DNA of 64,000 nucleotides from Spirosoma sp. KCTC 42546 (GTDB lineage: Bacteria; Bacteroidota; Bacteroidia; Cytophagales; Spirosomataceae). Positions 17,731 through 44,037 of this stretch are shown here, one piece after another. Position 1 is the first letter of the stretch. The number at the start of each line of letters is the position of its first letter. The DNA lies in the NCBI RefSeq assembly GCF_006965485.1, contig NZ_CP041360.1, positions 1,178,001-1,242,000 on the forward strand. Direction: 5' to 3'. The notes beneath the pieces are model-generated. The model made no database searches and had not been told where the DNA came from. It saw nothing but the letters and a program-made list of their open reading frames with translations. The translations under genes were made by a program, and so were the position numbers.

Positions 17731-20181
17731 CTATTCAGAGCGCAAACTTTTCACCGGATTCATCAACGCGGCTTTGATACTCTGGAAACTCACCGTTAAT
17801 AGGGCAATCAGCACGGTCAGTATGCCCGCCAGCGCGAATACCCACCAGCTAATCGTAATTTTGTACGCAAAGCCTGCCAGCCATTTGGTCATGGCCCACC
17901 ACGCCAGGGGCGAGGCAATGACCAGCGCCACCAGCACCAGGATAACGAAGTCTTTCGATAACAGGCCAACCAGGCTGGATACCGATGCGCCCAGTACTTT
18001 CCGAATGCCGATTTCCTTCGTTTTTTGCTGCGTTACCAGCGATACCAATCCGTATAAACCCAGGCAGGAAATCAGGATGGCCAATCCGGCAAAGTAGCCG
18101 ATGAGCTTGCTTAACCGCTGTTCACGCTCGTAGAGTTGGGCAAGGCGTTCATCGAGAAACTGATAGCTAAAGCCTTTTTCGGGAAAGTATTTATCCCATT
18201 CCTGCTGAATGAATTTCAGGGTTTTCGCTTTATCCTGCGCTTGTATTTTAATGGAGAAGAGCGATAAGCGGGGTTGATCAACGGAGAATAATGTGCCTTC
18301 AATAGGATCCAGCAACGACTGATTGTGAAAATCCTTCAGGACCCCCACAATTTTGCCCTCTTTCCCTTCCAGATTCACCGATTTGCCCAGCGCTGCCGAC
18401 GACGACTTCCAGCCCAGTTGCTTGACGCCCGTTTCATTGATCAGAAATGCCGCCGTTTTATCCGTCGGGTAGGCTTCCGAAAAATCCCGGCCCGCCACAA
18501 ATGTCAGCCCGTACGTCTGGGCGAAATTATGGTCGATGCCGACAGAGCCAATAAACATGTTCTCATCAGGCCTATGCCCTTCGGGAATTACATTCCGTCG
18601 GATGGAGCCGTCGCCCATGGGTCGGTTAGAGAGCGTAACCTGCTGAATATGCGGGTTGTTGAGCAGGATTTCCTTGAATGTTTTTAGGCGTAGGTACGTA
18701 CTGTCGTTTCGGTTTGCGAATACATTGGTGATTTTATCACTACGCGTATTGGCCATGATCATAAACGATTTGTCGAATCCTAGTGGCCGATTCTGCATAT
18801 AATCGAGTTGCTGAAACGATACCAGCGTTCCGATAATCAGGGCAATAGACGCTACGAACTGCACCCCCAGCAACACCTGCCGAACGACCCCTCCTTTAGC
18901 CTTACCGCTCACAAAACTGCCTTTCAGGGTGGCAATAGGCTGGAAGCCGGAGACGAAAAAGGCCGGGTAACTACCCGATAATATACCCGTTAGCAAAGCG
19001 ACGCCAATGAAAAGCACAATTAACCCGATGTCGGATAAAAAATAGTTCATGCTGATCGACTTGCCCGTCAGGTTATTCAGGACGGGCAAGAGCGCGCCAA
19101 TAAGCAGGAACGAGAAGACTAACGCAATGAGGCTTAATAGGATCGACTCGCCCAGGAACTGCGCAATCAGTTGTTGTTTATCACTGCCTAACACTTTTCG
19201 GATACCGACTTCCTTTGCCCGTTTTAGTGATCGTGCCGTTGACAGGTTCACAAAGTTGATGCAGGCAATTAAGAGTGTCATCAAGGCAATGCCAATGAAA
19301 ACATAGAGATACGTCATACTGCCCGACGGCTCTGGCGTAGCCTGCGCTTCAGACCGAAGATGGATATCCCGAAGTGGTTCCAGTTTGTACACTATGTCTT
19401 TGGCAAACTGCTTGTTGGCATAGGTCAGCAGAAACTTCGGGAAGCGGGCATTAACCGTTTCGGGCGAACGTCCGGGCCGAAGCAACACATAGGTATACCC
19501 ATGCGAGATTACCCAGTTCTGGGGGAGATTCTGGCGGGCGGCCTCACTTTCAGTCGCATACATCGTCTCATAATTCGCCAGCAAGTCGAGGTGAATGTGC
19601 GAGTTGTCGGGAAGCCGATCCACCACACCCGTTACCCGCAACGGATACTTGCCTTCGTATAGCAGCGTTTTACCCAGTGGATTCTGCCTGCCGAAATACT
19701 TGGCGGCTATCTCATCGGTAATTACCACGGTAAACTTGTCACGCAGGGCCGTACTCGGATTGCCTTGCCGAAAATGAAAGCTGAAAATGTTGAGCAGGGT
19801 GGAATCGCCGAAGAAGAACCGTTCCTCATCGTACTTGATAGGGTGCTCCTGGCGCTGGCTGAGTACTTCAATCGTGGCATTGCTCCGATATAAGCGAGCC
19901 GACGTTTCGATTTCTGAAAAGTTAGCGGGCAGTAAGGGCGATGCGGGCGGAGGAGTCAGCGCCAGCGGTTGTTCCAAACCCGCAAACTTGGGCAGGTACG
20001 TGAGCCGATAAATTCGGTCGTATTTCTGCTGGAAGGTGTCGTAGCTGAGTTCGTGCCGAACAAACAGCAGAATCAGAAAGCAACAGGTCAACCCAACCGT
20101 TAACCCGACGATGTTGATCAGCGAAAACCCCTTCTGCCGAAGCAGGTTTCGATAGGCGATTTTGAGGTAGTTGAAAAACAT
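17731..20181 (-). CDS. FtsX/MacB-type ABC transporter permease (cluster member 1)
   Basis: The 816 residues form a fused two-half permease: TM1 (~22-41), a MacB_PCD-like periplasmic domain (~45-285), three TM segments (~290-430), a further TM and second periplasmic domain (~435-670), and a last three-TM FtsX domain (~690-805). Cytoplasmic coupling loops KEVGIRKVLGS (~322) and KEIGIRKVLGAS (~720) are where such permeases contact their ATPase. The C-terminus is MNPVKSLRSE. Proteins of this class couple ATP hydrolysis to periplasmic work such as efflux or lipoprotein handling and do not themselves hydrolyse ATP. It is the most distal gene of the nine-permease series, whose only ATPase is at 41580-42257. 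The substrate is unknown. Confidence 0.93.
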   Translation of the reverse strand: MFFNYLKIAYRNLLRQKGFSLINIVGLTVGLTCCFLILLFVRHELSYDTFQQKYDRIYRLTYLPKFAGLEQPLALTPPPASPLLPANFSEIETSARLYRSNATIEVLSQRQEHPIKYDEERFFFGDSTLLNIFSFHFRQGNPSTALRDKFTVVITDEIAAKYFGRQNPLGKTLLYEGKYPLRVTGVVDRLPDNSHIHLDLLANYETMYATESEAARQNLPQNWVISHGYTYVLLRPGRSPETVNARFPKFLLTYANKQFAKDIVYKLEPLRDIHLRSEAQATPEPSGSMTYLYVFIGIALMTLLIACINFVNLSTARSLKRAKEVGIRKVLGSDKQQLIAQFLGESILLSLIALVFSFLLIGALLPVLNNLTGKSISMNYFLSDIGLIVLFIGVALLTGILSGSYPAFFVSGFQPIATLKGSFVSGKAKGGVVRQVLLGVQFVASIALIIGTLVSFQQLDYMQNRPLGFDKSFMIMANTRSDKITNVFANRNDSTYLRLKTFKEILLNNPHIQQVTLSNRPMGDGSIRRNVIPEGHRPDENMFIGSVGIDHNFAQTYGLTFVAGRDFSEAYPTDKTAAFLINETGVKQLGWKSSSAALGKSVNLEGKEGKIVGVLKDFHNQSLLDPIEGTLFSVDQPRLSLFSIKIQAQDKAKTLKFIQQEWDKYFPEKGFSYQFLDERLAQLYEREQRLSKLIGYFAGLAILISCLGLYGLVSLVTQQKTKEIGIRKVLGASVSSLVGLLSKDFVILVLVALVIASPLAWWAMTKWLAGFAYKITISWWVFALAGILTVLIALLTVSFQSIKAALMNPVKSLRSE

Positions 20182-20203
20182 GGTTTAAGAAATAGTCATT
20201 AAT

Positions 20204-20277
20204 TGTCATTACTAGTCAGTTATCGTCATTAGTTGACATTTACGGCATGTGATGACGATAACTGACTAGTAATGACA
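20204..20277. repeat. 26-bp perfect palindrome built from 10-bp-phased GTCATT units
   Basis: Arms 20204-20229 and 20252-20277 are perfect 26-base complements with a 22-base loop. Within and beside them, GTCATT-like hexamers start at 20195, 20205, 20215, 20225 and 20235, and complementary TGAC units recur at 10-base spacing on the other arm. It fills the gap between permeases 2 and 1. The same unit recurs at 46081-46203. Confidence 0.85.
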
Positions 20278-20284
20278 GCTATAC

Positions 20285-22654
20285 TTAGTCGTTGTTTTTA
20301 AGGACGTTTGATAGCTGAACATTTGCCATTTTCCAGCTCTGCGTGCCTACGGCGATGGCTGCCGTGATGAAAACGACCGTATTGGCCAGAAAGAACCACC
20401 CGATACCCGGCTGGAATGAACCCGTAAATTCCTGGGTGTTCTGGAGCAATAACTTGATGCCCAAAAAGCAAAGCACATTGGCCAGGAGTCCGGCAATCGA
20501 CAATAAAAGCAGGAATTCACGGTTGACCAGCAAAACGATCTGGGCAATTGTCGCCCCCAGCATTTTTCGTACGCCCACCTCTTTCATCCGTCTGGAAAAA
20601 TGCTGAGCCGCTAATCCATACAGCCCCATGCAGGCAATCAGCAACGCCAGTCCGGCCAGATAGCCAAAACCGTTGGACAGGTTTTGAAACGTGGTGTTAA
20701 AGCCATCGAACACATCTTTCTGGTAAAAATGAGAAGCCGTCGTGTTTGGGAATTTAGCCTGCCAGATTTGTTCCAGATTGGCTACTACCTTGGGGCCGCT
20801 TCCCGGATCGAATCGGGCAACTAAGTAGCTAAACATAGGCGGCTGGGCAGCGAAAAAAATGGCCGGGCGTGCTGCGCCAGAACCCATTAATTTGAAATCC
20901 TTGACGACTCCGGCAATCGTAACTAACTTCTTATCTACCCGTATCGACTTACCAACGGCGGCATCTTTCCAGTTGTGCTTCTGTACAAACGACTCATTGA
21001 CAATGACCGATTCGGTGTTTTCGGCGACACGGTTGTTTTCGAAGAAATGGCCCGACGCCAGGTTGAGCCCCATTGCGTCAAAATAATCGGGGCCAACGTT
21101 GTACTGAAGCACGTTTTCCTGCATATCGCCCAGGTAGATTGTTGCCCGGCCTACTGATTCGCCAACGTGGTTTTCGGCACCCGCAATCGTCCTGACGGAT
21201 GGGTTTCGGGCCAGCTCATTTTTGACGATGGTAAACTGGGTGCTATCGGTCAGGCGAAGGACCAGCGTTTGATCGGGATTGTAGCCCCAATCGAGGTTTT
21301 TCCACTGCACACCGGCACTCGTCAGGACAACCCCCAGAATAACCGACATAAATGCCAGCACAAATTGCGCAACCAACAGCGCCCGGCTGAACGTGTTTTT
21401 GGTGCCAAACTTCAGCTTCCCCGCCAGGACAGCAATGGGCCTGAAGGCGGAAACATACAAGGCCGGATACGCCCCCGACGCAATGGCCGTAAACGCTAAC
21501 AGGCCAGCCAGAAAACCCCACAAAGGCAAGTTTTGACCAAAGGAGATCGATATGCTCATGACCATCAGGTCATTAAACAGGGGAACCAGAAATGCGGTGG
21601 TGATAACCAATGCCAGCAACAGAGCCACAAAACAAAGCAGCAGATTTTCGGTCATGAACTGGGCAATCAATTGCTGGCGCGTACCACCCATCACCTTGCG
21701 TACACCAATTTCTTTTAATCGCTGGGTTGCCGCTCCCAGCGAGATATTGACGTAGTTGAAACACGACAAGCCCATCATGATCAGGGCGATAGCCGAAAAC
21801 AGGACCGTCGTGATTGGGTGGTTGGCTTCGGCCGGACGGCGGTTCACCTCGTAGGCATTCGGGGCCGGATCGCGGAGATTATCGAAGATGAACGATTTAA
21901 TGGGATTCTCCCGGTTCCTGGAATTATACAACGCCACATACCGACCCATTTGCCCAGCCAGCGACTTTACATCGGTTTTTTCCTTAAGCTCAATGAACAC
22001 GCCATAGATGTGAGAGGACCAATCCTGATTCTTCAGCGACGCGTGAACGGGATGATAGCCGGTCAGCAGGTCGAAGGCAAAGCCGGTATTGTTCGGGAAT
22101 TTCTCGGCCACGCCCTGCACGATGAACTGGTTTTGTTCCCGCTCACCCGTAACGATGGCAAAGGATTGCCCGATTGGAATCTGGTTCGGGAAGTACTTCT
22201 CCGCCATTTCGCTGCTGAGAATGATAGCATTCGGATCGGCCAGCGCTGCCGGGTTTCCGTACTTCAGCGGGAACGTGAACAGTTGGAAAAAGTTGGCATC
22301 CGCATAGGTAATCGTTTCGTCGAACAGATTTTCCTTACGAACCACTTGTACCCCTTCCCGCTGGACGCGAACCGCCCGTTTCACCTGAGGAAAGTCAGTA
22401 GCCAAAGCGGCAGCAATGGGAGCCGGGGCATTGCCGTATACCTGCGTTTCCTTATTGACTTCCATCGTGTATTCTACCATGAAAATCCGATCGCCGTTGA
22501 CATGGAAATTATCCAGCGTCCAGAAGTTTTTCAGAATTAAAAAAACGGCGATGCTACACGCAACCGCAATAGATAATCCAACAATGTTGATAAACGACGT
22601 TACCCGGTTAGTAACCAGATTCCGCCAGGCGAGAATGATATAGTTTTTTAGCAT
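20285..22654 (-). CDS. FtsX/MacB-type permease, divergent member (cluster member 2)
   Basis: At 789 residues this is the odd one out of the nine. It starts MLKNYIILAWRNLVTNR, keeps both coupling loops (KEIGVRKVMGG at ~314 and KEVGVRKMLGA at ~690) and the TM pattern, but its last ~80 residues differ from the others and it ends VQLSNVLKNND instead of MNPVKSLxSE. The second loop has RRMKEVG in place of the usual RTKEIG. It may therefore come from a separate permease lineage or handle another substrate. Its leader lies in the purine/pyrimidine hairpin at 22664-22776; its 3' side adjoins the GTCATT palindrome. Confidence 0.92.
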   Translation of the reverse strand: MLKNYIILAWRNLVTNRVTSFINIVGLSIAVACSIAVFLILKNFWTLDNFHVNGDRIFMVEYTMEVNKETQVYGNAPAPIAAALATDFPQVKRAVRVQREGVQVVRKENLFDETITYADANFFQLFTFPLKYGNPAALADPNAIILSSEMAEKYFPNQIPIGQSFAIVTGEREQNQFIVQGVAEKFPNNTGFAFDLLTGYHPVHASLKNQDWSSHIYGVFIELKEKTDVKSLAGQMGRYVALYNSRNRENPIKSFIFDNLRDPAPNAYEVNRRPAEANHPITTVLFSAIALIMMGLSCFNYVNISLGAATQRLKEIGVRKVMGGTRQQLIAQFMTENLLLCFVALLLALVITTAFLVPLFNDLMVMSISISFGQNLPLWGFLAGLLAFTAIASGAYPALYVSAFRPIAVLAGKLKFGTKNTFSRALLVAQFVLAFMSVILGVVLTSAGVQWKNLDWGYNPDQTLVLRLTDSTQFTIVKNELARNPSVRTIAGAENHVGESVGRATIYLGDMQENVLQYNVGPDYFDAMGLNLASGHFFENNRVAENTESVIVNESFVQKHNWKDAAVGKSIRVDKKLVTIAGVVKDFKLMGSGAARPAIFFAAQPPMFSYLVARFDPGSGPKVVANLEQIWQAKFPNTTASHFYQKDVFDGFNTTFQNLSNGFGYLAGLALLIACMGLYGLAAQHFSRRMKEVGVRKMLGATIAQIVLLVNREFLLLLSIAGLLANVLCFLGIKLLLQNTQEFTGSFQPGIGWFFLANTVVFITAAIAVGTQSWKMANVQLSNVLKNND

Positions 22655-22663
22655 AGTAAGGGG

Positions 22664-22776
22664 GAGAAAAGGGAGGAAGGAGGAGGGGAGGAAAGGCGGG
22701 CCGCCATCGCGGAAGAGTAGGATAAAAAGTGAACGTTCTAGTTCCTTCCTCCCTCTCCTCCTTCCTCCCTTTTCTC
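22664..22776. repeat. purine/pyrimidine inverted repeat between permeases 3 and 2
   Basis: Arms 22664-22684 (gagaaaagggaggaaggagga) and 22756-22776 are perfect 21-base complements, with further partial pairing inside. The loop carries the GC-rich element at 22695-22712. In the transcript the purine arm directly follows the stop of permease 3 and the pyrimidine arm directly precedes the start of permease 2. Confidence 0.8.
22695..22712 (-). repeat. GC-rich element (copy 1)
   Basis: On the minus strand it reads ccgcgatggcggcccgcc. It is a near copy, in opposite orientation, of the elements at 27815-27833 and 30882-30900. Confidence 0.6.
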
Positions 22777-22781
22777 CCTCT

Positions 22782-25184: not shown

Positions 25185-25209
25185 AAGAATTAGGGAAGAA
25201 GGAGGAGAG

Positions 25210-25299
25210 GGAGTAAAGGGAGGAGGGGGAGGAAAGGGGGAAAATAAGCTTTTGTTGTTTTTCCTTTTCTCCCTTTCTTCCCTCTCCTCCCTTTACTCC
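25210..25299. repeat. 35-bp purine/pyrimidine inverted repeat between permeases 4 and 3
   Basis: Arms 25210-25244 and 25265-25299 pair at 32 of 35 positions around a 20-base loop. The right arm overlaps the last two codons and stop of permease 4 (Ser-Glu-stop, GAGTAA on the minus strand), so the left arm is an inverted copy of a gene end. Confidence 0.85.
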
Positions 25300-27713: not shown

Positions 27714-27725
27714 AGAAGAAAGGGA

Positions 27726-27870
27726 GGAGGGGGAGTAAAGGGAGTAAAGGGAGGAAGGGGAGTAAAGGGAAGAGAGGGCGGTATACAAGGAGTTGCTATC
27801 GTTTTCCCTTTCGTCCGCAACGGCGGCCCGGCCTCTCCTCCTTCCTCCCTTTTCTCCCTCTTTACTCCGA
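27726..27870. repeat. purine/pyrimidine repeat between permeases 5 and 4
   Basis: The left part has several gggagtaaag-type units in a row (about 27729-27771). The right part is a C/T-rich tract (27834-27868) leading to the Ser-Glu-stop of permease 5. The two sides can pair in several registers. The GC-rich element at 27815-27833 lies between them. Confidence 0.7.
27815..27833 (+). repeat. GC-rich element (copy 2)
   Basis: It reads ccgcaacggcggcccggcc and is identical over 19 bases to 30882-30900. In both places C/T-rich sequence surrounds it. Confidence 0.7.
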
Positions 27871-30355: not shown

Positions 30356-30835
30356 ATGGAAGCAACTATCGAGCAAGTATCTGCTTACGAATTGGAACGC
30401 GGAAAACCTATGCCCACTTTAAATCATGCGTACGTGCAGAAAAATCTGCTAGTTAGTTTAGACTATCGGTATCGAAAAACGCTCACCGTTTTGTCAGAGT
30501 TAAACTTAAGCATGCCCGAACGACCCGATGCTGTACCTGATATTGCTATCTACCCAAAGCTCCAGATCGACTTTCTGCACGATGTTACATCCATGACCCA
30601 AATGCCGCTAACGGCCATCGAAATTGTGTCGCCCTCACAGTCAGATGCTGAAATTCTGGCCAAATTTGAGCGATACTTCAACGCTGGCGTTCAATCCTGC
30701 TGGTTGGTTATGCCCAGCTTTCAGGCTATTTCAGTGTATTCTGCTTTTGGTAAATACCGCTTCTTCTCCGAGAATGATACACTTACTGATGCGTTAACAG
30801 GAATTGAATTGAACTTAAGCGAAATTTTCTCTTAG
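30356..30835 (+). CDS. Uma2-family (putative PD-(D/E)XK nuclease fold) protein
   Basis: The 159-residue protein has the Uma2 layout: NHAYVQKNLLVSL near residue 23, the acidic PDAVPDIAIYP segment, AIEIVSPSQSDAEILAKFERYFNAGVQSCWLVMP (quoted as family landmarks: Glu of EIVSPS and the following Lys), and a short C-terminal beta region. Uma2 proteins are very abundant in Bacteroidota and cyanobacteria; the fold is nuclease-like but the biological role is unknown. It stands on the plus strand inside an otherwise minus-strand permease series, between members 6 and 5. The 13-base string after it (30838-30850) is shared with 17671-17683. Confidence 0.85.
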   Translation: MEATIEQVSAYELERGKPMPTLNHAYVQKNLLVSLDYRYRKTLTVLSELNLSMPERPDAVPDIAIYPKLQIDFLHDVTSMTQMPLTAIEIVSPSQSDAEILAKFERYFNAGVQSCWLVMPSFQAISVYSAFGKYRFFSENDTLTDALTGIELNLSEIFS

Positions 30836-33319: not shown

Positions 33320-33338
33320 GATATTTTAGTTACTTTTG
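33309..33338 (+). promoter_or_regulatory. Bacteroidota-type promoter for the second Uma2-like gene
   Basis: TTG at 33309-33311, a 19-base spacer, then TACTTTTG at 33331-33338 match the TTG-N19-TAnnTTTG consensus. The predicted start is ~33345, and the ATG is at 33362. The -33 part lies inside the first codons of permease 6 on the other strand. Confidence 0.6.
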
Positions 33339-33361
33339 GTCAAAATCAGAGTTTTAAAAGC

Positions 33362-33808
33362 ATGAGTTACACAAATCCAGTTTCACTTAAAAACCTTGTT
33401 CTGGAAGATGAGATGGGAGTTAACGCCCCCATTATTCATCAAAGCGTTATTGCTCGGCTGACGGCAGGGCTGTATCCACTCTACCGGTCAGGACAGATTT
33501 CATTTGAACCTCTTCCGGAGACCATGCTTACGGAAGGTTATAGTACACCCGTTCCTGATTTACTCCTCTATGATCATTCATCTGAGCAGGCAAAAGTTAT
33601 TGTTGAAGTTTGCCAAAATACGGGTCTGAAACACGACATTGGTAAAATCATTCGGCTGATTGACAGTGCTGAGTTCGGCATCCAGGAAGGATTCGTCTTC
33701 AACTATAAAACCCAACAATGGTACAGGTATCGCTTTGGCGATGGTGGCCTGACGACCGAATCCTCCTTTTCTGACATTCTACAACTGGATTTAAATACAT
33801 TTTTATGA
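33362..33808 (+). CDS. Uma2-like (putative PD-(D/E)XK fold) protein
   Basis: The frame is open from 33263, but the ATG at 33362 lies just downstream of a good promoter, and the earlier part only reads through the start of permease 6. The 148-residue protein has YSTPVPDLLLYD (acidic residue of the fold), KVIVEVCQNTG (Glu of the EVC strand) and a following Lys (DIGKIIRLID), the arrangement of Uma2/PD-(D/E)XK proteins. It is only distantly like the Uma2 protein at 30356. It is the second small plus-strand gene placed between permeases of the minus-strand series. Confidence 0.75.
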   Translation: MSYTNPVSLKNLVLEDEMGVNAPIIHQSVIARLTAGLYPLYRSGQISFEPLPETMLTEGYSTPVPDLLLYDHSSEQAKVIVEVCQNTGLKHDIGKIIRLIDSAEFGIQEGFVFNYKTQQWYRYRFGDGGLTTESSFSDILQLDLNTFL

Positions 33809-34053
33809 TTTTACGTACCTACGGGCTTATTGATTTGAACTAATTAACCGCCGTTTTGCTAGTCTTCAGAACCCCCAACCCCCTGAAGGGGGCTTAGTTC
33901 GCTGGGGAGAAAAGCCCCCTTCAGGGGGTTGGGGGTTTGAAAGCCCCAAAAGGATAAGTTTTATTTAGGCGGTTATTTAATACAAATCAAATTAGCCCGT
34001 GTTTTATTTCAAATTTCAAAGCAAACCGGGCTAAAGCCCGTAGGTACGTAAAA
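33809..34053. repeat. 245-bp nested inverted repeat
   Basis: Three nested arm pairs: outer 33809-33828 with 34034-34053 (20 of 20), middle 33830-33852 with 33968-33990 (20 of 23), inner 33870-33895 with 33912-33937 (26 of 26). A further 8-base pair (33992-33999 with 34027-34034) sits between outer and middle on the right side. The inner stem is a C-rich/G-rich hairpin of dispersed-repeat type. This occupies most of the 321-bp gap between the Uma2-like gene and permease 7; a smaller hairpin (cagcgagca type) follows near 34060-34092. Confidence 0.9.
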
Positions 34054-34129
34054 TGGCTTGCTCGCTGAAGGCGCTAGGCCACCAGCGAGCAGAGAAAAGC
34101 AAAAGCTACTTCATCCCGTTTAAGATCAT

Positions 34130-36505
34130 TTATTCACTTTTTAAACTCGTTACCGGATTCACCATAGCCGCTTTAATGCTCTGATAACTGACGGTTAAAA
34201 AGGCAATGGTGATGGCTAATACTCCTGCCACCGCAAAAATCCACCACGCCAAATCGGTTTGATACGCGAACGTGCCGAGCCATTTGCTGACCGCCCACCA
34301 GGCCAGCGGAGAGGCCAGGATAATAGCAATCAGGACAAGCTTCAAAAAATCGGTCGAGAGTAGGCCAATGATGTTTGGTATGCTGGCCCCCAGTACTTTT
34401 CGAACCCCAATTTCCTTAGTACGCTGCTCGGCGGTGAAGGCAGCCAGCGCAAACAAGCCCAGGCACGAAATCAGAATGGCAAGTATCCCGAAGTAATTGA
34501 CGAGCGTATTCACCTGCTGCTCACTGCGGTACATTTTCTCGTATTCTTCATCCATGAAATGGTACGTGAAGGGGTAGTTTGGATTGAACTCCTTCGACAA
34601 CTGCTCCAGATCGGCAATGGCCTGCTGAGTTTGTCCAGGGCGGGTTTTTACCAGTAAGTAACTCGTATTGGCTGAGTTGAAAACCAGAATGAGTGGGCTG
34701 ATGGCCTGATGGAGTGAGTTCAGATGGAAATCTTTCATGAGCCCGATAATCTGACCTTTACCCATCCAGAATTCCACTTCTTTACCAACCGGATCTTTCA
34801 TGCCCATCAGTTTAGCCGCGCTTTCATTGATAAGATACCGGGCCGAGTCAGCCGGACTATCCATCCGGAAATCACGCCCTGCCACCAGTTTGATATTCAT
34901 GGTTCGGGTGAAGTCGCTCCCTACGGCCATCACGGAAACACTCGTGCCCAGGTTAGGATCTTTACCCGGCCATTTTAAATCGCCGGATGTGCTCTGAATA
35001 TTGACCGGTAACGACATGGTTGTTGTGGCCGACGCAATGGAAGGCTTCCGCATCACTTCCTGCCGAAAGACGTCTACTTTTTTGGGTTGGGCAATCTCTC
35101 CTTCCAGCGGTACATACACCACATCCTCCCGGTCGAGACCGAGATTTTTGGTGCGCAGGTAGTTCATCTGCTTGCCTACCACCAGCATGCCCACAATCAG
35201 GAAAATCGAGAGCGAAAACTGAAACACCACCAAGGTTCGCCGGAACAAAGCAGGGCCTGAACCGAATTGCAGGCGACCTTTCAGGATTTTAATCGGTTGA
35301 AGCGAGGATAGGAACAAGGCCGGATAGCTGCCCGACAAGAAACCAGTAACCAGCACCAAAACCAGAATGATAGCCCACAGCATTGGCTCAGCCAGGTTGA
35401 GCATTAATTGTTTCCCGAATACCTCATTGAAGGTGGGCAGTACAGACCAAACCAGTCCTAAAGCCAGTACAACAGCCACCAGACTCGTCAACACCGATTC
35501 GCTCAAAAACTGACCAATCAACGATGAACGTAGTGCCCCAACCACTTTCCGGACGCCAACTTCCTTGGCCCGATTCGCTGAACGAGCCGTGGCCAGGTTC
35601 ATAAAATTGATACAGGCAATCAGCAGGATAAACAGTGCGACGATGGAGAATATTCGTACGTATTCGATGCGTCCGCCAACGCTTTTTCCATTTTTGTATT
35701 CAGCATACAGATGCAGGTCGGTAATGGGTTGTAGTGTTGGTAAGCCCGTCTCGAAGTTTTTACCCGCAAAGCGCGGATAAATGTGTTTCATGGCGGCCTC
35801 AGCCTGCGCTACGGTTGTATTCGGCTTTAGGCGGACATACGTATAGAAGCCATTATTTCCCCAGGTTTTCATCCAGTCCTGCTCTTGTACTTTCCAGTTT
35901 ACGAGCCAGTCGAATTGCAGGCTGGAGTTGTTGGGTAAGTCTTCAATAACGGCCCCAACCACGTAGAATTTGTCGTTGTCGAGTTGTATGGTTTTGCCCA
36001 TAGCTAACCCGGCCGGAAAATATTTTTCCGCTATTTTTCGGGTAATGACAATCTGGTTCGTTTGGGCCAGCGCAGTTTTTGGGTTGCCGTAAATGGCGGG
36101 TAGGTCGAATACGCCAAAGAAGTCATCGGTAGCATAATGCCCTTTTTCTTTAGCTGCTTTTTCGCCTGTTGTCTGATTGCCAACGGGTTTGATCAACAAC
36201 TCAGGGCCGTAGTTGATTTTGGTGACAGCAGCTACTGCCGGTACATCTTTCGCAATGGCCTCCTGCAACGGGCCGGGCGTAACGGAGTTGGTGACTAGCT
36301 CGCCATTGTAAGGAAAGTTGACCCGAACGTACATAATGCGCTCGGCATCGGGCAGAAACCGGTCGTAGCTTAGTTCATCTTTTACCCATAAGCCAATTAG
36401 TAAACTGCACGCCATGCCCAGCGCTAAGCCAAGCACATTGATACTTGAATAGAGTTTGTTCTTCAGCAAACTCCGAACCGCGATTTTGAGATAGTTTCGT
36501 AACAT
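34130..36505 (-). CDS. FtsX/MacB-type ABC transporter permease (cluster member 7)
   Basis: The 791-residue protein starts MLRNYLKIAVRSLLKNK and ends MNPVTSLKSE (its preceding residue pattern is KAAMVNPV). Coupling loops are KEVGVRKVVGA (~313) and KEIGVRKVLGAS (~696). It is a close tandem paralogue of member 8: long stretches around residues 400-460 (GPALFRRTLVVFQFSLSIF, GKQMNYLRTKNLGLDRE) are nearly identical, while the periplasmic loops differ more. That pattern fits a recent duplication followed by change in the external domains. Confidence 0.93.
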   Translation of the reverse strand: MLRNYLKIAVRSLLKNKLYSSINVLGLALGMACSLLIGLWVKDELSYDRFLPDAERIMYVRVNFPYNGELVTNSVTPGPLQEAIAKDVPAVAAVTKINYGPELLIKPVGNQTTGEKAAKEKGHYATDDFFGVFDLPAIYGNPKTALAQTNQIVITRKIAEKYFPAGLAMGKTIQLDNDKFYVVGAVIEDLPNNSSLQFDWLVNWKVQEQDWMKTWGNNGFYTYVRLKPNTTVAQAEAAMKHIYPRFAGKNFETGLPTLQPITDLHLYAEYKNGKSVGGRIEYVRIFSIVALFILLIACINFMNLATARSANRAKEVGVRKVVGALRSSLIGQFLSESVLTSLVAVVLALGLVWSVLPTFNEVFGKQLMLNLAEPMLWAIILVLVLVTGFLSGSYPALFLSSLQPIKILKGRLQFGSGPALFRRTLVVFQFSLSIFLIVGMLVVGKQMNYLRTKNLGLDREDVVYVPLEGEIAQPKKVDVFRQEVMRKPSIASATTTMSLPVNIQSTSGDLKWPGKDPNLGTSVSVMAVGSDFTRTMNIKLVAGRDFRMDSPADSARYLINESAAKLMGMKDPVGKEVEFWMGKGQIIGLMKDFHLNSLHQAISPLILVFNSANTSYLLVKTRPGQTQQAIADLEQLSKEFNPNYPFTYHFMDEEYEKMYRSEQQVNTLVNYFGILAILISCLGLFALAAFTAEQRTKEIGVRKVLGASIPNIIGLLSTDFLKLVLIAIILASPLAWWAVSKWLGTFAYQTDLAWWIFAVAGVLAITIAFLTVSYQSIKAAMVNPVTSLKSE

Positions 36506-36507
36506 AG

Positions 36508-36617
36508 GAAAAGGAGGAGTAAAAGGAGGAGGAAGGGGAGTAGAGGGAGAAAGGAGGAATAACGCTCATATCGTTTTTTCTTCTCTTCCCCCTCCTCCCT
36601 TTCCTCCTTCCTCCCCT
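36508..36617. repeat. purine/pyrimidine repeat between permeases 8 and 7
   Basis: A G/A-rich left side (36508-36556) and C/T-rich right side (36578-36616) surround a loop reading ataacgctcatatcg. Almost the same loop (ataacgctcatgttg) appears in the permease 9/8 gap at about 39050-39066. Confidence 0.7.
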
Positions 36618-39004
36618 CATTCAGTTTTTAAGCTTTTTACCGGATTCATTAACGCTGCTTTTATACTCTGGTAGCTTACGGTTAGGAAAGCAATCAGCAG
36701 AGCTAGTGCACCTGCCAGACCGAAAATCCACCAGCTCAGTTCGGTTTGGTAGGCGAACGTGCCCAGCCATTTGTTGACCGCCCACCACGCTAGGGGCGAT
36801 GCGAGCACCAAGGCAATCAACACTAGTCGCAGGAAGTCGGTCGATAGCAGGGTAACAATACTGGCGACCGATGCACCTAAGACTTTCCGAACGCCAATTT
36901 CTTTCGTTCGCTGCTCAGCTGTAAAGGCGGCCAATGCAAATAAGCCCAGACACGAAATCAGGATAGCCAATATGCCGAAATAATTGACAAGTGTGCTGAT
37001 TTGCTGTTCGGCCTTGTACAGTTTCTCGAAGGCTTCGTCCAAGAAATGATAGGTGAACGGGTAGGTCGGATTGAACTGTTTGCTAACCTGCTCCAGATCG
37101 GCAATGGCCTGTTGGGTTTTGCCAGCCTGCGTTTTCACAAGCAGGTATCTTGTATTTTCTGGATAGAAAACCACGACTAAGGGTGTAATCGCCTGGTGCA
37201 GTGAGCTTAAATGGAAATCCTTCATCAGACCCACTATCTGCCCTTTACCCCGCCAAAACGTAATTTCTTTACCAACTGGGGCTTTTAGCCCCATTAGTTT
37301 AGCGGCTGTTTCGTTGATCAGGTAATTCGAGGAGTCGGCTAAACTGCCTGCTCGAAAATCTCGTCCACCGAGCAGTTTGATATTCGTTGTTCGAATAAAA
37401 TCGCTCCCTACCGACATGGCCGATACACTAACCAGACGCTTGGGGTCTTTGCCGGGCCAACTCAAATCCGTTGAATTACTTCGCACATCGATGGGTAGCC
37501 GATTCGTCAAGGTTGCCGAGGCCACAGATGGATTGCGTAAAATCGCCTGCCGATAGGGTTCCATTGTTTGTGGCTGGGCCAGCGCTCCTTCCAACGGTAT
37601 ATACACCACATTTTCCCGGTCGAGGCCGAGGTTTTTAGTGCGGAGATAATTCATCTGCTTACCCACCACCAGCATGCCCACAATCAGGAAAATCGAGAGC
37701 GAAAACTGAAACACCACCAACGTCCGCCGGAACAAAGCAGGGCCAGCACCAAACTGCAACCGTGACGACGGACCGCTACCTTTCAGGATTTTAATGGGTT
37801 GTAGCGCCGACAGAAACAGCGCTGGATAGCTCCCCGATAAAAAGCCGGTTATCAGCACCAGGCCAGCAATGATAAACCAAAGAGTTGAGTTGGTTAGGTC
37901 AAGTGTCAACTGCCTTTCAAACAGCGCATTGAATGTTGGTAAGATGGCGGAGACAAAACTCAGTGCCAGCACTACGGCTAATAGACTCGTGAGGATCGAC
38001 TCGCTTAGAAACTGCCCAATCAGCGACGAACGTCCTGCACCAACTACTTTCCGAACCCCCACTTCCTTTGCCCGAACCGACGAACGTGCCGTAGCTAAGT
38101 TCATGAAATTGATGCAGGCAATCAGCAGAATAAACAGCGCGACGATGGAGAATATCCGGACGTACTCAATCTGACCGCCAACCACTTTCCCGTTTTTATA
38201 CTCCGAATAGAGGTGCATGTCTGCCATGGGATGCAGAATGGGAGCCTCGTGATTATTGAACTTGGCGTAGCGTGGGAAAATGCCTTTCAGAAGTGCCTCG
38301 GTTTGAGCCACGGTTATGCCAGACTTCAGGCGTGCGTAGATGAGCACGGAGTTTGTGCCCCACTCATTCATCCATGCCTCCTCATAGTTCTTGAAGTTGG
38401 TCAGCCAGTCGAATTGAAGCGTCGAGTTGCTGGGTAAATTTTCAAGGACAGCCCCAACGGTGTAGTTTTTCTGGTTGTCGAGCTGGAGCGTTTTGCCCAG
38501 GGCAACTTCGTTTGGAAAATACTTCTCGGCCAGTCGGCGCGAGATAATGATCTGGTTAAGCTGGCCTAACGCGACTTTGGGATTGCCATAAAGTGCAGGC
38601 AAGTCAAATACATCAAAGAAATCGGACGACGCATATTCTCCCTGTTCTTTCGCCGATTTCTCGGTGCTGGAACCATTAACTGCTTTTACCAGAATTGGCC
38701 CACTATCATTGAGTTTGGTTATGGCTGCTATACCCGGTACATCGCGTGAAATGGCCTCTTTCAGCGGGCCGGGTGTATACATAGCCGTTTCGACCGGGCC
38801 ACCGTTGAACGCATAATTGACCCGTACGTTATAAATGTTTTCAACGCCGGGCAGGAAACGATCATAACTCAGTTCATCGTGTACCCACAACCCGACGAGT
38901 AACGCACACGCCATGCCCAGCGCCAGACCAAAGACGTTGATTGACGAATAGAATTTGTTCTTCAACAAACTCCGAATAGCGATTTTGGCGTAGTTGGTTA
39001 GCAT
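36617..39004 (-). CDS. FtsX/MacB-type ABC transporter permease (cluster member 8)
   Basis: A longer frame from 39061 reads through the C/T-rich leader (Pro/Leu-rich residues). The family start MLTNYAKIAIRSLLKNK is at 39004, giving 795 residues. Coupling loops are KEVGVRKVVGA (~311) and KEIGVRKVLGAS (~700), with C-terminus MNPVKSLKTE. It is the tandem twin of member 7; one difference is a short Gly/Pro/Ser insertion (KGSGPSSRLQFG) before the central TM segment. Confidence 0.93.
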   Translation of the reverse strand: MLTNYAKIAIRSLLKNKFYSSINVFGLALGMACALLVGLWVHDELSYDRFLPGVENIYNVRVNYAFNGGPVETAMYTPGPLKEAISRDVPGIAAITKLNDSGPILVKAVNGSSTEKSAKEQGEYASSDFFDVFDLPALYGNPKVALGQLNQIIISRRLAEKYFPNEVALGKTLQLDNQKNYTVGAVLENLPSNSTLQFDWLTNFKNYEEAWMNEWGTNSVLIYARLKSGITVAQTEALLKGIFPRYAKFNNHEAPILHPMADMHLYSEYKNGKVVGGQIEYVRIFSIVALFILLIACINFMNLATARSSVRAKEVGVRKVVGAGRSSLIGQFLSESILTSLLAVVLALSFVSAILPTFNALFERQLTLDLTNSTLWFIIAGLVLITGFLSGSYPALFLSALQPIKILKGSGPSSRLQFGAGPALFRRTLVVFQFSLSIFLIVGMLVVGKQMNYLRTKNLGLDRENVVYIPLEGALAQPQTMEPYRQAILRNPSVASATLTNRLPIDVRSNSTDLSWPGKDPKRLVSVSAMSVGSDFIRTTNIKLLGGRDFRAGSLADSSNYLINETAAKLMGLKAPVGKEITFWRGKGQIVGLMKDFHLSSLHQAITPLVVVFYPENTRYLLVKTQAGKTQQAIADLEQVSKQFNPTYPFTYHFLDEAFEKLYKAEQQISTLVNYFGILAILISCLGLFALAAFTAEQRTKEIGVRKVLGASVASIVTLLSTDFLRLVLIALVLASPLAWWAVNKWLGTFAYQTELSWWIFGLAGALALLIAFLTVSYQSIKAALMNPVKSLKTE

Positions 39005-39099
39005 AGGAGGGAGGAGGGGGAGTAAAGGGAAGAGAGGGAAGAGAGGGGAAATAACGCTCATGTTGTTTTTTCCTTTCCTCCTTCCTCCCCTTATTCAGT
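39005..39099. repeat. purine/pyrimidine repeat between permeases 9 and 8
   Basis: The left side 39005-39050 is G/A-rich with gggagtaaaggg. The right side 39067-39092 is C/T-rich and runs into the stop of permease 9. The loop is shared in sequence with the permease 8/7 gap. Confidence 0.7.
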
Positions 39100-41475
39100 T
39101 TTTAAACTTGTTACCGGATTCATTAACGCGGCTTTAATGCTTTGGTAACTTACGGTTAGTAGGGCAATGCCTACTGCCAATAATCCGGCCAGGACAAACA
39201 TCCACCATTCCATATCAATTTTGTAGGCAAAATCCTGTAGCCATTGACTCATCAGCCACCAGGCAACGGGTGTGGCAACCAATATGCCGATCAGAACTAA
39301 CTTCAGAAAATCTGTTGAGAGTAGTGTGATAATGCCAGCAATGGATGCGCCTAGAACTTTTCGCACCCCAATTTCTTTGGTGCGCTGCTCGGCCGTGAAG
39401 GCAGCTAAGCCAAATAGACCCAGACAGCATACGATAATAGCGACTCCAGCAAAGAAACTAAATAACTGGCCGGTGCGCTGCTCGGTGCGGTACATCCGGT
39501 TATAGGTTTCATCCAGAAAAGTGTATTCAAATACATTGTCGGGAGAGTCTTTTTTCCAGAGCCGTTCGGCAGCCGCAATGGCCTGAGGTGCCTGTTGACC
39601 TGTTGTTTTGACGTGCATGATGCCATTGTCGCCTGGAATGCTGAACAGCAACATGGGCTGGATTTGGGAGCGGATCGATGCCGTCGTAAAATCTTTTACA
39701 ACACCAATAATATGACCTTCTGTCTGGTGAAACTTGAAGCGCTTGCCAATCGGATTGGTGATGCCTGCCTGCTTTACCGCTGTTTCGTTCAGGATGAAAC
39801 TTGTTGAGTCGGCTTTAGTGCCCGTAAAATTTTTGCCCAGACTTAGTTTGATGCCATAGGCTGGAATGAAATCGTGGCTGATACCGAGCTGATTAACAAT
39901 GAATGAGCGATCTGGTGCTTTGCCATCCCAATCGGTATCGCCGGTGCTGCCACCACCACCAACCAGTCCTCCAGTAGCCGTAACTACAGCACGGATGCTA
40001 CTCTCTTTTTCGAGTTCGCGTTTGTATTGCTGAGCCTTGTTACCCGCATAAAACACGAAGGTATGTTCCTTGTTAAAGCCCGGATCTCGTTCCCGTATAT
40101 AGCGCAACTGTTCGCCAATGACCAGCGTGCCTACGATGAGGCCAGTTGCCAGCGCAAATTGGGTAACGACGAGTACTTTGCGTAATCCTGCCTGCCCTGT
40201 TTGGGCACCTCGTCCGCGCAACGAACGAAGTGGATTAAAGGACGACATCATGATGGCCGGATACAACCCCGCCAAGCCTACCGTAAGTGTCAATGTGCCA
40301 ATCAGCAAGCCCCATACTTCGGGGTTAAGCAACGAGAAACCGAGCGTTTTTCCTGTCAGATCGAGGTAATACGGCATCATCAGTTGGATCAACACGATAG
40401 CGGCCAGCAACGCAATGCCCATCGTCAGTAACGATTCAACGAGCAACTGAACTAACAACTGCTGCGATTCGGCCCCGATCACTTTCCGGACACCTACTTC
40501 GCGCGCGCGCTTGGTTGCCCGGGCGGTGGTCAGATTGATGTAATTGATACAGCCAATACTCAGCAACAGCAAGGCAATTAACCCCAGCATCCGAACCTGC
40601 TGCATGCCGGTATCCTTGCCGTTAGGTTCGTAAAAGTGGGTTTTCGTAAATGCCTGAAGCTGGTAATCAGATGAGGAGTCGCCCGGTTTGGTATTACGGG
40701 CTATAGCCTGAAGCGCGATTAATTTTTTGCCGATGGCGGTAGGCTCAATTGTGGGGCTCAGTTTCAGGAATGTCTGAAAATAGTAATTGCCCCAGTCATC
40801 GTCCAGGCGCTTCCAGTCACCATTCCCACCGAAAGTCCGTTTTTTCAGACTCATCGGAAAGAATACCTTGGCTCGAATCGATGAGTTGTCGGGCATATTG
40901 GCCAATACGGCGCTCACCGTAAAGACCCGGTTACTATCCAGAACCGTTAGCTTTTTTCCAACGGCTTCTGGCGTACCAAAGAATTTTTCCGCCATTTCCT
41001 CGGTCATAACTACCGAGTTTGGCGATGGGAACGGTTTTGTAACGTCTCCGCTCCGTACGGCAAAACCCGTAAACAGATTCAGGAAATTTTCGTCAACGTA
41101 AGCCAGATCATCGTACTGCTCCGAAAACGTTTTGACCCGCGCGCGCTCGTTAACCCGAAATGTACGAAAGTCGTAGAGGGTTGCTACGCGAACAACTTGT
41201 TCAACGCCAGGAACTTTGTTGGCGGCTGCTACGGCAATCGGAGCGGGCGTGCCCGACCAGAAGTTTTCGTCGGCACCTTTCCCAAAATGAGCATTGACCC
41301 GATAAATCCGGTCCGCATCAGCATGGAATCGGTCGAAGCTCAGTTCGTCTTTCACCCACCAGAACAGCAATACGCTCACCGCCAGCACAACCGCCAGACC
41401 ACCGATGTTTAAAACGGAATAGCCGCCACCTGAACGGATGTTTCGCCAGGCTATTTTGAGATAGTTACTGAACAT
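39091..41475 (-). CDS. FtsX/MacB-type ABC transporter permease (cluster member 9, next to the ATPase)
   Basis: The 794-residue protein starts MFSNYLKIAWRNIRSGG and ends MNPVTSLKTE. Coupling loops are REVGVRKVIGA (~324) and KEIGVRKVLGAS (~698). The second periplasmic domain carries a Gly-rich loop (GGLVGGGGSTGDTDWDGK, ~500-517) absent from the others. As the permease nearest the ATPase and adaptor it is the best candidate for the ancestral partner in a three-part machine (inference). Confidence 0.93.
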   Translation of the reverse strand: MFSNYLKIAWRNIRSGGGYSVLNIGGLAVVLAVSVLLFWWVKDELSFDRFHADADRIYRVNAHFGKGADENFWSGTPAPIAVAAANKVPGVEQVVRVATLYDFRTFRVNERARVKTFSEQYDDLAYVDENFLNLFTGFAVRSGDVTKPFPSPNSVVMTEEMAEKFFGTPEAVGKKLTVLDSNRVFTVSAVLANMPDNSSIRAKVFFPMSLKKRTFGGNGDWKRLDDDWGNYYFQTFLKLSPTIEPTAIGKKLIALQAIARNTKPGDSSSDYQLQAFTKTHFYEPNGKDTGMQQVRMLGLIALLLLSIGCINYINLTTARATKRAREVGVRKVIGAESQQLLVQLLVESLLTMGIALLAAIVLIQLMMPYYLDLTGKTLGFSLLNPEVWGLLIGTLTLTVGLAGLYPAIMMSSFNPLRSLRGRGAQTGQAGLRKVLVVTQFALATGLIVGTLVIGEQLRYIRERDPGFNKEHTFVFYAGNKAQQYKRELEKESSIRAVVTATGGLVGGGGSTGDTDWDGKAPDRSFIVNQLGISHDFIPAYGIKLSLGKNFTGTKADSTSFILNETAVKQAGITNPIGKRFKFHQTEGHIIGVVKDFTTASIRSQIQPMLLFSIPGDNGIMHVKTTGQQAPQAIAAAERLWKKDSPDNVFEYTFLDETYNRMYRTEQRTGQLFSFFAGVAIIVCCLGLFGLAAFTAEQRTKEIGVRKVLGASIAGIITLLSTDFLKLVLIGILVATPVAWWLMSQWLQDFAYKIDMEWWMFVLAGLLAVGIALLTVSYQSIKAALMNPVTSLKTE

Positions 41476-41579
41476 GGTTGAGGAAGGAGGAGAGGGAGAA
41501 AAGGGACGAAGGGGAGGAAAGGGCGAAAATAAGCTTTTGTTGTTTTTCCTCTCCTCCTTCCTCCCTTTCCTCCCTGATT
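41476..41579. repeat. purine/pyrimidine repeat between ATPase and permease 9
   Basis: A G/A-rich left side (41480-41528) and C/T-rich right side (41547-41574) surround the loop aataagcttttgttg, which is also the loop of the permease 4/3 repeat (25243-25258). Confidence 0.75.
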
Positions 41580-42257
<678 letters not shown>

Positions 42258-42347
42258 TGTTGTAGGGGAGAAAAGGGAGGAAGGCAGGAAAGGAGGAAAG
42301 AAATTTCTACTTTGTCTCCCAAACCACCGTTTATTACCTCATATTTT

Positions 42348-42710
42348 ATGGCTAAAATTGAAAAATTCGAAGATATGATTGTTTGGCAGGAAGGACTTGC
42401 TCAGGCTGTAAATGTGTATAAATTATTAGCTAATTGCACCGACTACAGCTTAAGGGATCAAATGAGACGTTGTTCTGTATCAGTTCCCTCAAATATTGCA
42501 GAAGGCTATGAGCGCCATACAAATAAAGAGTTTGTGCGTTATTTGCGCATAGCAAAGGGGTCTAATGGTGAACTCCGAACACAAATCCACTTGGCTGTTG
42601 CAGTCGATATCATTGATGCTGAAACTGGACAAATGCTTCTGGGTAAAAGCCGGCTTATCTCTTCCATGCTTCAAAACTTGATTAAAGTTAGATTGGAAAA
42701 ATTTACATGA
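42348..42710 (+). CDS. four-helix-bundle protein (23S rRNA intervening-sequence protein family)
   Basis: From ATG at 42348 the protein has 120 residues and matches the S23/IVP-like four-helix-bundle family: FEDMIVWQEGLAQAVNVY, then SLRDQMRRCSVSVPSNIAEGYER, then FVRYLRIAKGSNGELRTQI. The role of this family is unknown; the name comes from members encoded in rRNA intervening sequences. Here it is a free-standing plus-strand gene placed between the adaptor and the ATPase, inside the purine (42258-42300) and pyrimidine (42755-42790) arms of the gap repeat, as though inserted there. Confidence 0.88.
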   Translation: MAKIEKFEDMIVWQEGLAQAVNVYKLLANCTDYSLRDQMRRCSVSVPSNIAEGYERHTNKEFVRYLRIAKGSNGELRTQIHLAVAVDIIDAETGQMLLGKSRLISSMLQNLIKVRLEKFT

Positions 42711-42716
42711 TGGAAA

Positions 42717-42790
42717 AAGGAGGAAAGGAATAAAGGACCATACTGTTTTTTAGTCCTTTCCTCCCCTTCGTCCCTCTCCTCCTTCCTCCC
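42717..42790. repeat. purine/pyrimidine repeat at the 3' side of the adaptor gene
   Basis: The G/A-rich 42717-42740 can pair with C/T-rich 42758-42769. The C/T-rich tract continues to 42790 and also matches the complement of 42258-42300 across the four-helix-bundle gene. The 19-base string complementary to part of this tract recurs in the ATPase/permease 9 gap. Confidence 0.65.
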
Positions 42791-44037
42791 TAAAATTCCA
42801 ACACTTCGTTATCACCAAAATTTTCGTAAGAACTCGTAATAACTTGCTCGCCGGGTTCCAGTCCGGTCAGGACTTCGTAGAACTCAGGGTTTTTGCGGCC
42901 AAGTGTGATCGGACGTTTCACAGCGCGTTTGCCTGATTTATCCACTACGTATACCCAGTTACCGCCGGTGTCGGAGAAGAAACCACCTACGGGCAGCAGC
43001 GTCGCTTTGGCGGCCTTACCTAACTCCAACTGAATCGGCGATGACTGACCCCGCTTGATCCCTTCGGGCGTTCCCTTCGGAAAGATCATGTCCACTTCAA
43101 ACCGACCACTTTTTACTTCAGGATAGACCCGGCTGATTTCCAGATCGTGCATTTTTCCGTTGAATTCAAAAGAGCCTTTCAGTCCTGAAAACACCCGGCT
43201 GATGTAGTGTTCATCGATACCGACGCGCATTTTGAAACCATTCAGGTCATCAATCTGGCCGATGTTCTGGCCCCGGTTGATGTTTGAGCCAACTTCCACA
43301 TCAATGCTGGACAACTGACCCGAAACGGGGGCTTTAACAACCAGGTTATCCAGTGTCTGTTGCCAAAGAGCCACATTTTTCTGTGTACGTTGCAAGGTGC
43401 CTTCCAATTGTTTGATCTGGAACTTTGCATTCTCCTCCTGGTACTTCTGGGTTTCGATCTCAATGGTACGCTGACCAGTTAGCCGTTCATAAGCGCGTTT
43501 GGCTTTCAGATAATCTTCTTCCGAAACGACTTTGTCCTTGTACAGCTTAGCCTGCCGATCGTAGGAGTCCTTTGCCTGATCGATCTGAGCATCGAGGTCG
43601 GCTAACGTTTTTCGGAGGGTAAAGCGCTCTACCTGAAGGCGTTGGCGGGTGGTTTGTAGGTCGTTGACAAGTCGGTTAGCTTCGGTTTCTGACTGGAGGA
43701 AGCTTAGTTTCAGGCTCTGGTTTTCGAGTTTCAGGAGTACTTCTCCTTTCTTAACCATGTTACCCCCTTCAATTAGTTTCTGCGTTACATAACCCCCTTC
43801 AATAGCATCGAGCCGGATCGTTTTCAGCGGTTGTACAACACCGGTTACGGCAATAAAATCTTCGAAAGGCCCCGTTGATACAGCGGAGACGGTTATTTTA
43901 TCTTTTTCAACGTTCAACTTCGACCGACGGTCGGCAAAGAAGAGGGTGTAAGCTAATAAGCCTAGAACCACCGCACCGCCCCCGAAGATAGCTAGGCGTT
44001 GGACAGTCCAAAATCGTTTAGGTAAGACGCGATCCAT
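42790..44037 (-). CDS. HlyD/MacA-type periplasmic adaptor (membrane fusion protein)
   Basis: The 415-residue protein has one N-terminal TM segment (~15-32), a split lipoyl/biotinyl-like domain (GYVTQKLIEGGNMVKKGEVLLKLE near 75-100 and VVKAPVSGQLSSIDVEVG near 235), a long coiled-coil hairpin (~105-225, rich in Gln/Glu/Arg heptads), then beta-barrel and membrane-proximal domains. Such adaptors bridge an inner-membrane permease to an outer-membrane channel. No TolC-like channel gene is in the window. It is the first gene of the series, 80-100 bp downstream of a sigma-54-type promoter, which suggests it heads the operon. Confidence 0.93.
   Translation of the reverse strand: MDRVLPKRFWTVQRLAIFGGGAVVLGLLAYTLFFADRRSKLNVEKDKITVSAVSTGPFEDFIAVTGVVQPLKTIRLDAIEGGYVTQKLIEGGNMVKKGEVLLKLENQSLKLSFLQSETEANRLVNDLQTTRQRLQVERFTLRKTLADLDAQIDQAKDSYDRQAKLYKDKVVSEEDYLKAKRAYERLTGQRTIEIETQKYQEENAKFQIKQLEGTLQRTQKNVALWQQTLDNLVVKAPVSGQLSSIDVEVGSNINRGQNIGQIDDLNGFKMRVGIDEHYISRVFSGLKGSFEFNGKMHDLEISRVYPEVKSGRFEVDMIFPKGTPEGIKRGQSSPIQLELGKAAKATLLPVGGFFSDTGGNWVYVVDKSGKRAVKRPITLGRKNPEFYEVLTGLEPGEQVITSSYENFGDNEVLEF

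Follow-up and report, generated by a model that had tools for sequence, protein, structure and literature searches.

Organization of the locus

The stretch of DNA analysed here, referred to as the window, comprises 64,000 nucleotides (positions 1,178,001-1,242,000) of the genome of the soil bacterium Spirosoma sp. KCTC 42546, a single contig of 8,664,091 bases. On its minus strand lies a row that begins with a HlyD/MacA-type adaptor gene, continues with the gene for a MacB/LolD/DarD-type ATPase of the ATP-binding cassette (ABC) kind and ends with nine genes for FtsX/MacB permeases (Table 1). This arrangement, put forward in a preliminary description of the sequence, is confirmed by open reading frames (ORFs) and domain matches, and a domain search detected two MacB_PCD and two FtsX stretches in each of the nine permeases. 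The members of the row all lie on the minus strand as described, but three plus-strand ORFs interrupt it, and the permease ORFs span 789-831 aa instead of about 790-816 aa; the 831-aa length of permease 6 results from an upstream TTG start, and from the conserved start at residue 26 the protein is likely to be 806 aa. No TolC-family match was found in the window. The row is real, and it is one visible piece of a larger system.

The interrupting genes belong to the 23S_rRNA_IVP and Uma2 families, one reading of the former beginning two codons further in. Opposite-strand genes of both families recur near the adaptor and ATPase genes or within the permease arrays of relatives, at differing positions (20 IVP matches, and 17 and 11 Uma2 matches, across 80 named loci), as though they inserted between permease genes. 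A 2267-aa ORF (window positions 3784-10587) lies between the permease array of the window and the next array in the genome.

Table 1. Features of the adaptor-ATPase-permease locus (window coordinates) and unlinked permeases with a prefix domain (coordinates within the named locus).
Feature	Coordinates	Strand	Basis
HlyD/MacA-type periplasmic adaptor, 415 aa, core component	42790..44037	-	Pfam HlyD_3; DarC NF038010 best NCBIfam
MacB/LolD/DarD-type ATPase, 225 aa, core component	41580..42257	-	ABC_tran; DarD NF038007
Permease 1, 794 aa, duplicated MacB_PCD/FtsX	39091..41475	-	Domain matches
Permease 2, 814 aa; likely start at residue 20	36617..39061	-	Domain matches, alignment
Permease 3, 791 aa; 72% identity with permease 2	34130..36505	-	Domain matches
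Permease 4, 805 aa; structure modelled	30902..33319	-	Domain matches, orthologues, model
Permease 5, 812 aa	27862..30300	-	Domain matches
Permease 6, 831 aa from TTG; likely 806 aa	25293..27788	-	Domain matches
Permease 7, 800 aa	22782..25184	-	Domain matches
Permease 8, 789 aa; most divergent (26-29%), without conserved C-terminal tail	20285..22654	-	Domain matches, alignment
Permease 9, 816 aa	17731..20181	-	Domain matches
Four-helix-bundle (23S_rRNA_IVP family) gene between HlyD and ATPase; interruption, outside the machine	42348..42710	+	Pfam-type match
Uma2-family gene, interruption in row	30356..30835	+	Family match
Weak Uma2-like ORF, interruption; 5' end overlaps permease 4 start	33263..33808	+	E 0.0047, below cut-off
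Sigma54-like -24/-12 site, first base 107 nt upstream of HlyD start	44129..44144	-	Motif match
Sigma54-dependent (NtrC/AtoC-like) response regulator, divergent, conserved neighbour	46307..47695	+	Pfam Sigma54_activat, Response_reg, HTH_8
Histidine kinase	50142..51503	+	HATPase_c
Prefix-bearing unlinked permease, locus L005	10297..12909		Permease prefix domain 2
Prefix-bearing unlinked permease, locus L006	1727..4387		Permease prefix domain 2
Prefix-bearing unlinked permease, locus L014	7452..10079		Permease prefix domain 2

Permeases and ATPases across the genome

A profile of the nine permeases, applied to the stretches around all MacB_PCD matches of the genome, returned 72 ORFs of at least 300 aa, of which 65 are full-length duplicated permeases, nine in the window and 56 unlinked; left out of the 65 were six half-size permeases and one 859-aa permease (957438-960017) that lies beside an ATPase match of its own. 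The unlinked permeases include a second array of 16 (1.114-1.158 Mb), which shares the strand of the row and lies 37 kb past its ninth permease, and a third array of 18 (2.665-2.721 Mb), the remaining 22 occurring alone or in small groups. A search of the genome with the DarD model gave 64 ATPase matches, seven of which scored at least 170 bits with the window ATPase best; none lies within the 16- or 18-gene permease arrays. For 55 of the 56 unlinked permeases the same search detected no ATPase match within 10 kb, the one exception (4376025-4378688) having a weak partial match (23.5 bits) at a distance of 1.2 kb. The objection raised in the preliminary description against its own proposal, that each permease might have its own ATPase elsewhere, therefore fails. 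The next-best ATPase, at 4.219 Mb, is accompanied by two half-permeases, a TolC-family match and a HlyD relative, and this group looks like a complete ordinary set. Comparison supports the idea of a shared core, and the set that would use it, first taken to be the nine, perhaps extends to up to 65 permeases in this genome.

The adaptor-ATPase core in related genomes

The HlyD query gave 202 named loci, of which the best 80 were used (67-100% identity); these bear the names Spirosoma, Larkinella, Dyadobacter, Runella, Emticicia and Chitinophaga, among others. Downstream of HlyD the ATPase is a single ORF in 79 of the 80 and is in two pieces in one, and among the 75 loci with at least 9.5 kb downstream, 71 contain two to five permeases (or ends) and four contain none. 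The close ATPase occurs once in 34 of 36 genomes of the genus (92-100% identical); in the other two it is represented by a 97% fragment (G021) or was not found (G047, 71% complete). Longer stretches were followed in fourteen other genomes, which, like the seven Spirosoma genomes used for linkage below, were picked for contiguous or informative loci and not at random. Within the genus the number of permease ORFs behind the pair is 44 in G018 (including two pieces of one gene, 541 + 239 aa), 24 in G017, 20 in G023, 16 in both G004 and G011, 10 in G046 and three in G008; if gaps are limited to 6 kb, the corresponding numbers are 44, 9, 6, 11, 16, 10 and 2. Outside the genus two permeases follow the pair in G035 and G055 and one in G028 and G050; none lies beside it in G033, where the genome has four permease matches, the nearest is 24 kb away in G054, and in G025 an ATPase and one permease were seen and nothing else of the set. 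Seven genomes of the genus contain 13 to 108 MacB_PCD matches (E <= 1e-14), permease counts for the large genomes G001, G018 and G048 of the genus and for G028 being scored on the best 130 candidates.

Membership of the linked array is exchanged between species. When the 65 permeases were compared with the arrays of the seven Spirosoma genomes by reciprocal best hits (at least 65% identity), 24 of the 56 unlinked ones had an ATPase-linked orthologue in one or more other Spirosoma if gaps of up to 6 kb were accepted, and 28 had one if gaps of up to 19 kb were accepted. With the narrower limit, 7/9 linked permeases, 12/16 of the second array, 7/18 of the third and 5/22 of those scattered are linked elsewhere, and the wider limit raises the three unlinked groups to 13/16, 8/18 and 7/22; an orthologue of permease 4 (81-90% identity) is present in all seven arrays of the genus that were compared. 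Since permeases unlinked in this genome can be linked in another species, linkage to the ATPase seems dispensable for whatever retains a permease.

Permeases and ATPase are also distributed together. Of 247 Bacteroidota genomes, 71 are matched by the permease profile (E <= 1e-60), and 71 have a best match to the window ATPase at E <= 1.6e-80, against E >= 5.1e-77 in the other 176; the two lists of 71 are identical. The same split is seen in 59 relatives: the best ATPase match is never weaker than 5.6e-73 in the 46 that carry permeases (the incomplete G047 has the weakest), and in the 13 that carry none it is 3.8e-64 or weaker, or absent. These patterns bear on the alternative that only linked permeases use the window ATPase and that unlinked ones rely on other MacB/LolD-type ATPases, such as that of a core at 2.546 Mb or a lone ATPase at 60 kb. 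ATPases of this kind do exist in the genome, 46-50% identical to that of the window and with no MacB_PCD permease beside them; however, ATPases of similar identity are found in genomes lacking these permeases as well, whereas the window type tracks the permeases exactly, orthologues swap between linked and unlinked positions, and coupling loops are alike in both. Separate engines for the unlinked permeases are consequently considered rather unlikely.

Putative docking surface and predicted fold

In both coupling loops and in the C-terminal tail, linked permeases resemble unlinked ones as closely as they resemble each other; identity of the periplasmic domains is about 25% whichever groups are compared. 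The early observation that coupling loops and the last transmembrane region are kept is real at the protein level. Coupling motifs were detected in both halves of 56 of the 65 permeases. Sixty-one carry the tail motif, permease 8 being among the four that lack it. A model of permease 4 (mean predicted local distance difference test score, pLDDT, 81.9) has YbbP as its best solved match over nearly its full length, with MacB, BceB and Lol proteins lower. By sequence, the best solved relative of the permeases is MacB (5lil); MacB and LolD chains are among the closest solved relatives of the ATPase, and the solved relatives of the adaptor include MacA.

It could be argued that the unlinked permeases are ATPase-free, possibly along with most of the nine, and act for example as sensors or ligand-binding scaffolds, the state implied by 'orphan' in the family name ADOP. 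The scarcity of neighbouring ATPase matches described above would fit, as would an N-terminal prefix domain on three scanned long permeases, but coupling motifs in both halves of most of the family, and cytoplasmic loops that rank with the best conserved regions, as would be expected of a docking site for an ATPase, make this quite improbable. The prefix itself ('permease prefix domain 2') was present in all three long unlinked permeases scanned (Table 1). It seems to have been gained or lost more than once, because permeases 2 and 3, the nearest relatives of the prefix-bearing permease of L014, are themselves without it.

Relations and selection among the permeases

Pairwise identity among the nine is 26-40%, with the exception of permeases 2 and 3, the only sister pair among them. 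In a tree of the 65 paralogues the nine are scattered, requiring at least 8 changes, and forcing them into one clade costs 1017 log-likelihood units (approximately unbiased test, p 2.1e-60, quick tree), so that the nine do not form a single clade. The proposed diversification of periplasmic domains is not sustained: the ratio of nonsynonymous to synonymous substitution (dN/dS) between orthologues is 0.01-0.15, periplasmic and membrane parts alike (22 comparisons, five genomes), and does not exceed 0.15 in any domain with a usable value of the seven permeases covered (1, 3, 4, 5, 7, 8, and 9), permeases 2 and 6 falling outside the set as they have no orthologue of at least 75% identity in the five genomes used. 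Given this low ratio, each tested permease seems to hold a stable task of its own. Third-position identity at common four-fold degenerate residues is 0.26-0.42 in every stretch of the nine. Gene conversion of the conserved 3' ends was considered and ruled out, four-fold sites being equally saturated along the gene; the well-kept C-terminal part is therefore a product of selection and not of recent conversion.

These results also address the alternative that tandem duplication produced the array incidentally and that most of its copies are redundant or decaying. Long rows whose number differs by species, and the one split gene in G018, are what such a process might leave, but saturated synonymous sites between paralogues, the absence of a clade and strong purifying selection on the orthologues render it highly improbable.

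Putative sigma54 control of the core

A sigma54-dependent response regulator is encoded divergently upstream of HlyD and gave 71 upstream matches across the 80 named loci, compared with 37 for the histidine kinase, which comes after the regulator in some loci, in several non-Spirosoma loci lies 1.4-1.8 kb from HlyD and is the probable partner of the regulator. The pattern TGGCAY-N4/5-TTGV is found ahead of HlyD in 72 of 79 loci, with none on the reverse strand and about one expected. With C or T allowed at the fourth base, it is found ahead of 14 of 205 permeases (of at least 700 aa), again with none on the reverse strand and none for a mirror motif against a background of about two, and four of the 14 belong to the second array of this genome. 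The strict form TGGYAY-N5-TTGV has four matches in the window versus 2.0 expected, none at array starts. In an earlier scan with weights, the HlyD site went undetected in most loci. Sigma54 control of COG0577 permeases in Bacteroidia is reported in an independent prediction at genome scale (PMC12316311). The core genes are probably switched on by the neighbouring sigma54-dependent two-component system.

Spacers and transcription

Folding of five spacers in the row gave long hairpins in each (41476-41579, 36506-36616, 25185-25292, 22655-22781, and 20182-20284), which are GA-rich/CT-rich except for 20182-20284, a 26-bp stem. Other Spirosoma arrays also contain hairpins, whose sequences are unrelated: of 82 permease spacers measuring 40-200 bp, 44 have z < -3. 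In a second count hairpins were present in 30/59 permease spacers versus 15/52 other co-directional gaps (p 0.012). As a dispersed repeat, the GA-rich word GGAGGAAGGAGGAGAGG from the spacers occurs in 23 exact copies in the genome (G000:C1), seven of which lie at 1.132-1.221 Mb, within and beside the two arrays of ~800-aa permeases. Transcription of the whole row as a single unit is doubtful since three plus-strand genes interrupt it and hairpins occupy its spacers.

A proposed shared core serving many permeases

The comparative evidence favours a shared core, although it cannot prove that the ATPase is physically shared, and it appears likely that one sigma54-controlled adaptor-ATPase core energises in trans a large, exchangeable set of DarB/YbbP-like permeases. 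In the proposed mechanism, the HlyD adaptor and the ATPase are a conserved single-copy core, the genes of which are probably turned on by the two-component system next door. Each permease, being a fused pseudodimer of two MacB-type halves, would receive two copies of the ATPase on its two coupling loops, and these would move the periplasmic domains by mechanotransmission. This ATPase and adaptor would be used in trans by the nine and by most of the other 56 permeases, a single permease at a time and perhaps in competition, and each permease would handle its own periplasmic ligand, presumably passing it outward to a TolC-family protein encoded elsewhere. The preliminary description had envisaged interchangeable permeases on one ATPase and adaptor that provide a set of substrate options; comparison suggests the sharing, and the substrate options are still inferred. 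A wider form of the proposal may also hold but is advanced only tentatively, namely that nearly all duplicated permeases of the cell (65 here, about 100 at most in relatives) draw in trans on a single core under one sigma54 switch, with permease genes entering and leaving the core locus freely, in which case the 'orphan' permeases would be no orphans.

Several observations weigh against a shared core or against its proposed control. In the seven genomes, 32 of the 56 unlinked permeases (28 with the wider gap limit) have no linked orthologue, nine of the 65 permeases lack one or both coupling motifs as written for the scan, and some dS values in the orthologue comparisons are saturated. Co-occurrence is partly trivial, as the core usually lies beside at least one permease; with the two so often neighbours, it speaks for association of the families and not for docking. 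A second, permease-free core at 2.546 Mb has an ATPase 50% identical to that of the window, a TolC-like protein and an adaptor (L140 6083-10675, with an aminotransferase-family gene between its members and no adjacent permease) and could serve some permeases, and the lone ATPase at 60 kb is of the same group. Chitinophaga and G050 have a second ATPase in the same row, and sharing rules may therefore differ there; this ATPase follows the permeases in two Chitinophaga loci (L137 19512, L138 17091) and in G050 and scores 236-243 bits versus 495 for the query itself. As to control, the HlyD site here is one base shorter in spacing than in many relatives, the motif precedes only the 14 of 205 permeases and none of the nine in the window, and a generic sigma54 position-specific scoring matrix, with weights taken from the literature, found no enrichment upstream of the 65 permeases relative to shuffles, although it beat the reverse strand (p 0.01). 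Moreover, the pattern was first recognised in permease sites and HlyD upstream regions and counted with fixed patterns afterwards, so that the HlyD count is descriptive and the permease count controlled but not independent.

Duplicated FtsX/MacB permeases form large families that lack ATPases and carry the annotation 'unknown function', and a specific, conserved, single-copy ATPase and adaptor that track the permeases across the phylum represent a candidate engine for the family. If this is correct, ATPase sharing would be extended from importers to MacB-type (type VII) ABC machines, on a far larger scale, and the function of dozens of permeases would become addressable through one gene.

Comparison with known systems

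The permease family as such is already known, its use of a common ATPase being what is inferred here; in the open-access papers searched, judged by title or abstract, none on a shared ATPase for this family was found. DarBCD, which exports the antibiotic peptide darobactin through one permease, consists likewise of three separate proteins of the same kinds, a duplicated permease (777-position model), an adaptor and an ATPase. DarC (NF038010, 194 bits) is the best NCBIfam match of HlyD and DarD (NF038007, 277 bits) that of the ATPase, and DarB (NF038008) is second best for all nine permeases (67-178 bits), with the respective cut-offs of 450, 375 and 700 not reached. Unlike DarBCD, the window system has one adaptor and ATPase facing many permeases.

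The best NCBIfam match of all nine permeases is ADOP (TIGR03434, 224-350 bits, below the cut-off of 622.3, as are six other permeases at 289-340 bits), and in all nine the FtsX/MacB_PCD unit is internally duplicated as in that family. 'Orphan' in the ADOP name denotes the lack of an adjacent ATPase, a feature that all but one of the 56 other permeases do share within the 10 kb limit. The window array, in contrast, adjoins an ATPase and an adaptor, and the term therefore does not suit it. In Dyadobacter, RAST annotation lists 28 and 33 ADOP copies per genome (PMC11573002).

YbbAP (PDB 9ge6, 9ge7) has the same fused two-half permease fold with two periplasmic domains, but identity is 12-14%, NF041854 scores at most 37.5 bits among the nine (cut-off 999), and the window system encodes an adaptor with its ATPase, whereas YbbP is treated under tripartite efflux pump (TEP)-independent homologues (PMC5985334). 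MacAB-TolC resembles the window system in having an adaptor gene alongside the permease; it differs in having the ATPase domain fused to the permease N-terminus. In the window the 225-aa ATPase has an ORF to itself, ABC_tran matches are absent from the nine permeases, many permeases face one ATPase, and there is no TolC-family match. For the sharing itself there is an analogy, and not a membership, in MsmK, a single ATPase that energises several sugar importers (PMC4519317), with few systems per ATPase. Group II energy-coupling factor (ECF) transporters provide a second analogy. The window system is assigned to none of the families compared; in its working it comes closest to a mechanotransmission machine of the MacB/YbbP type whose ATPase is separate.

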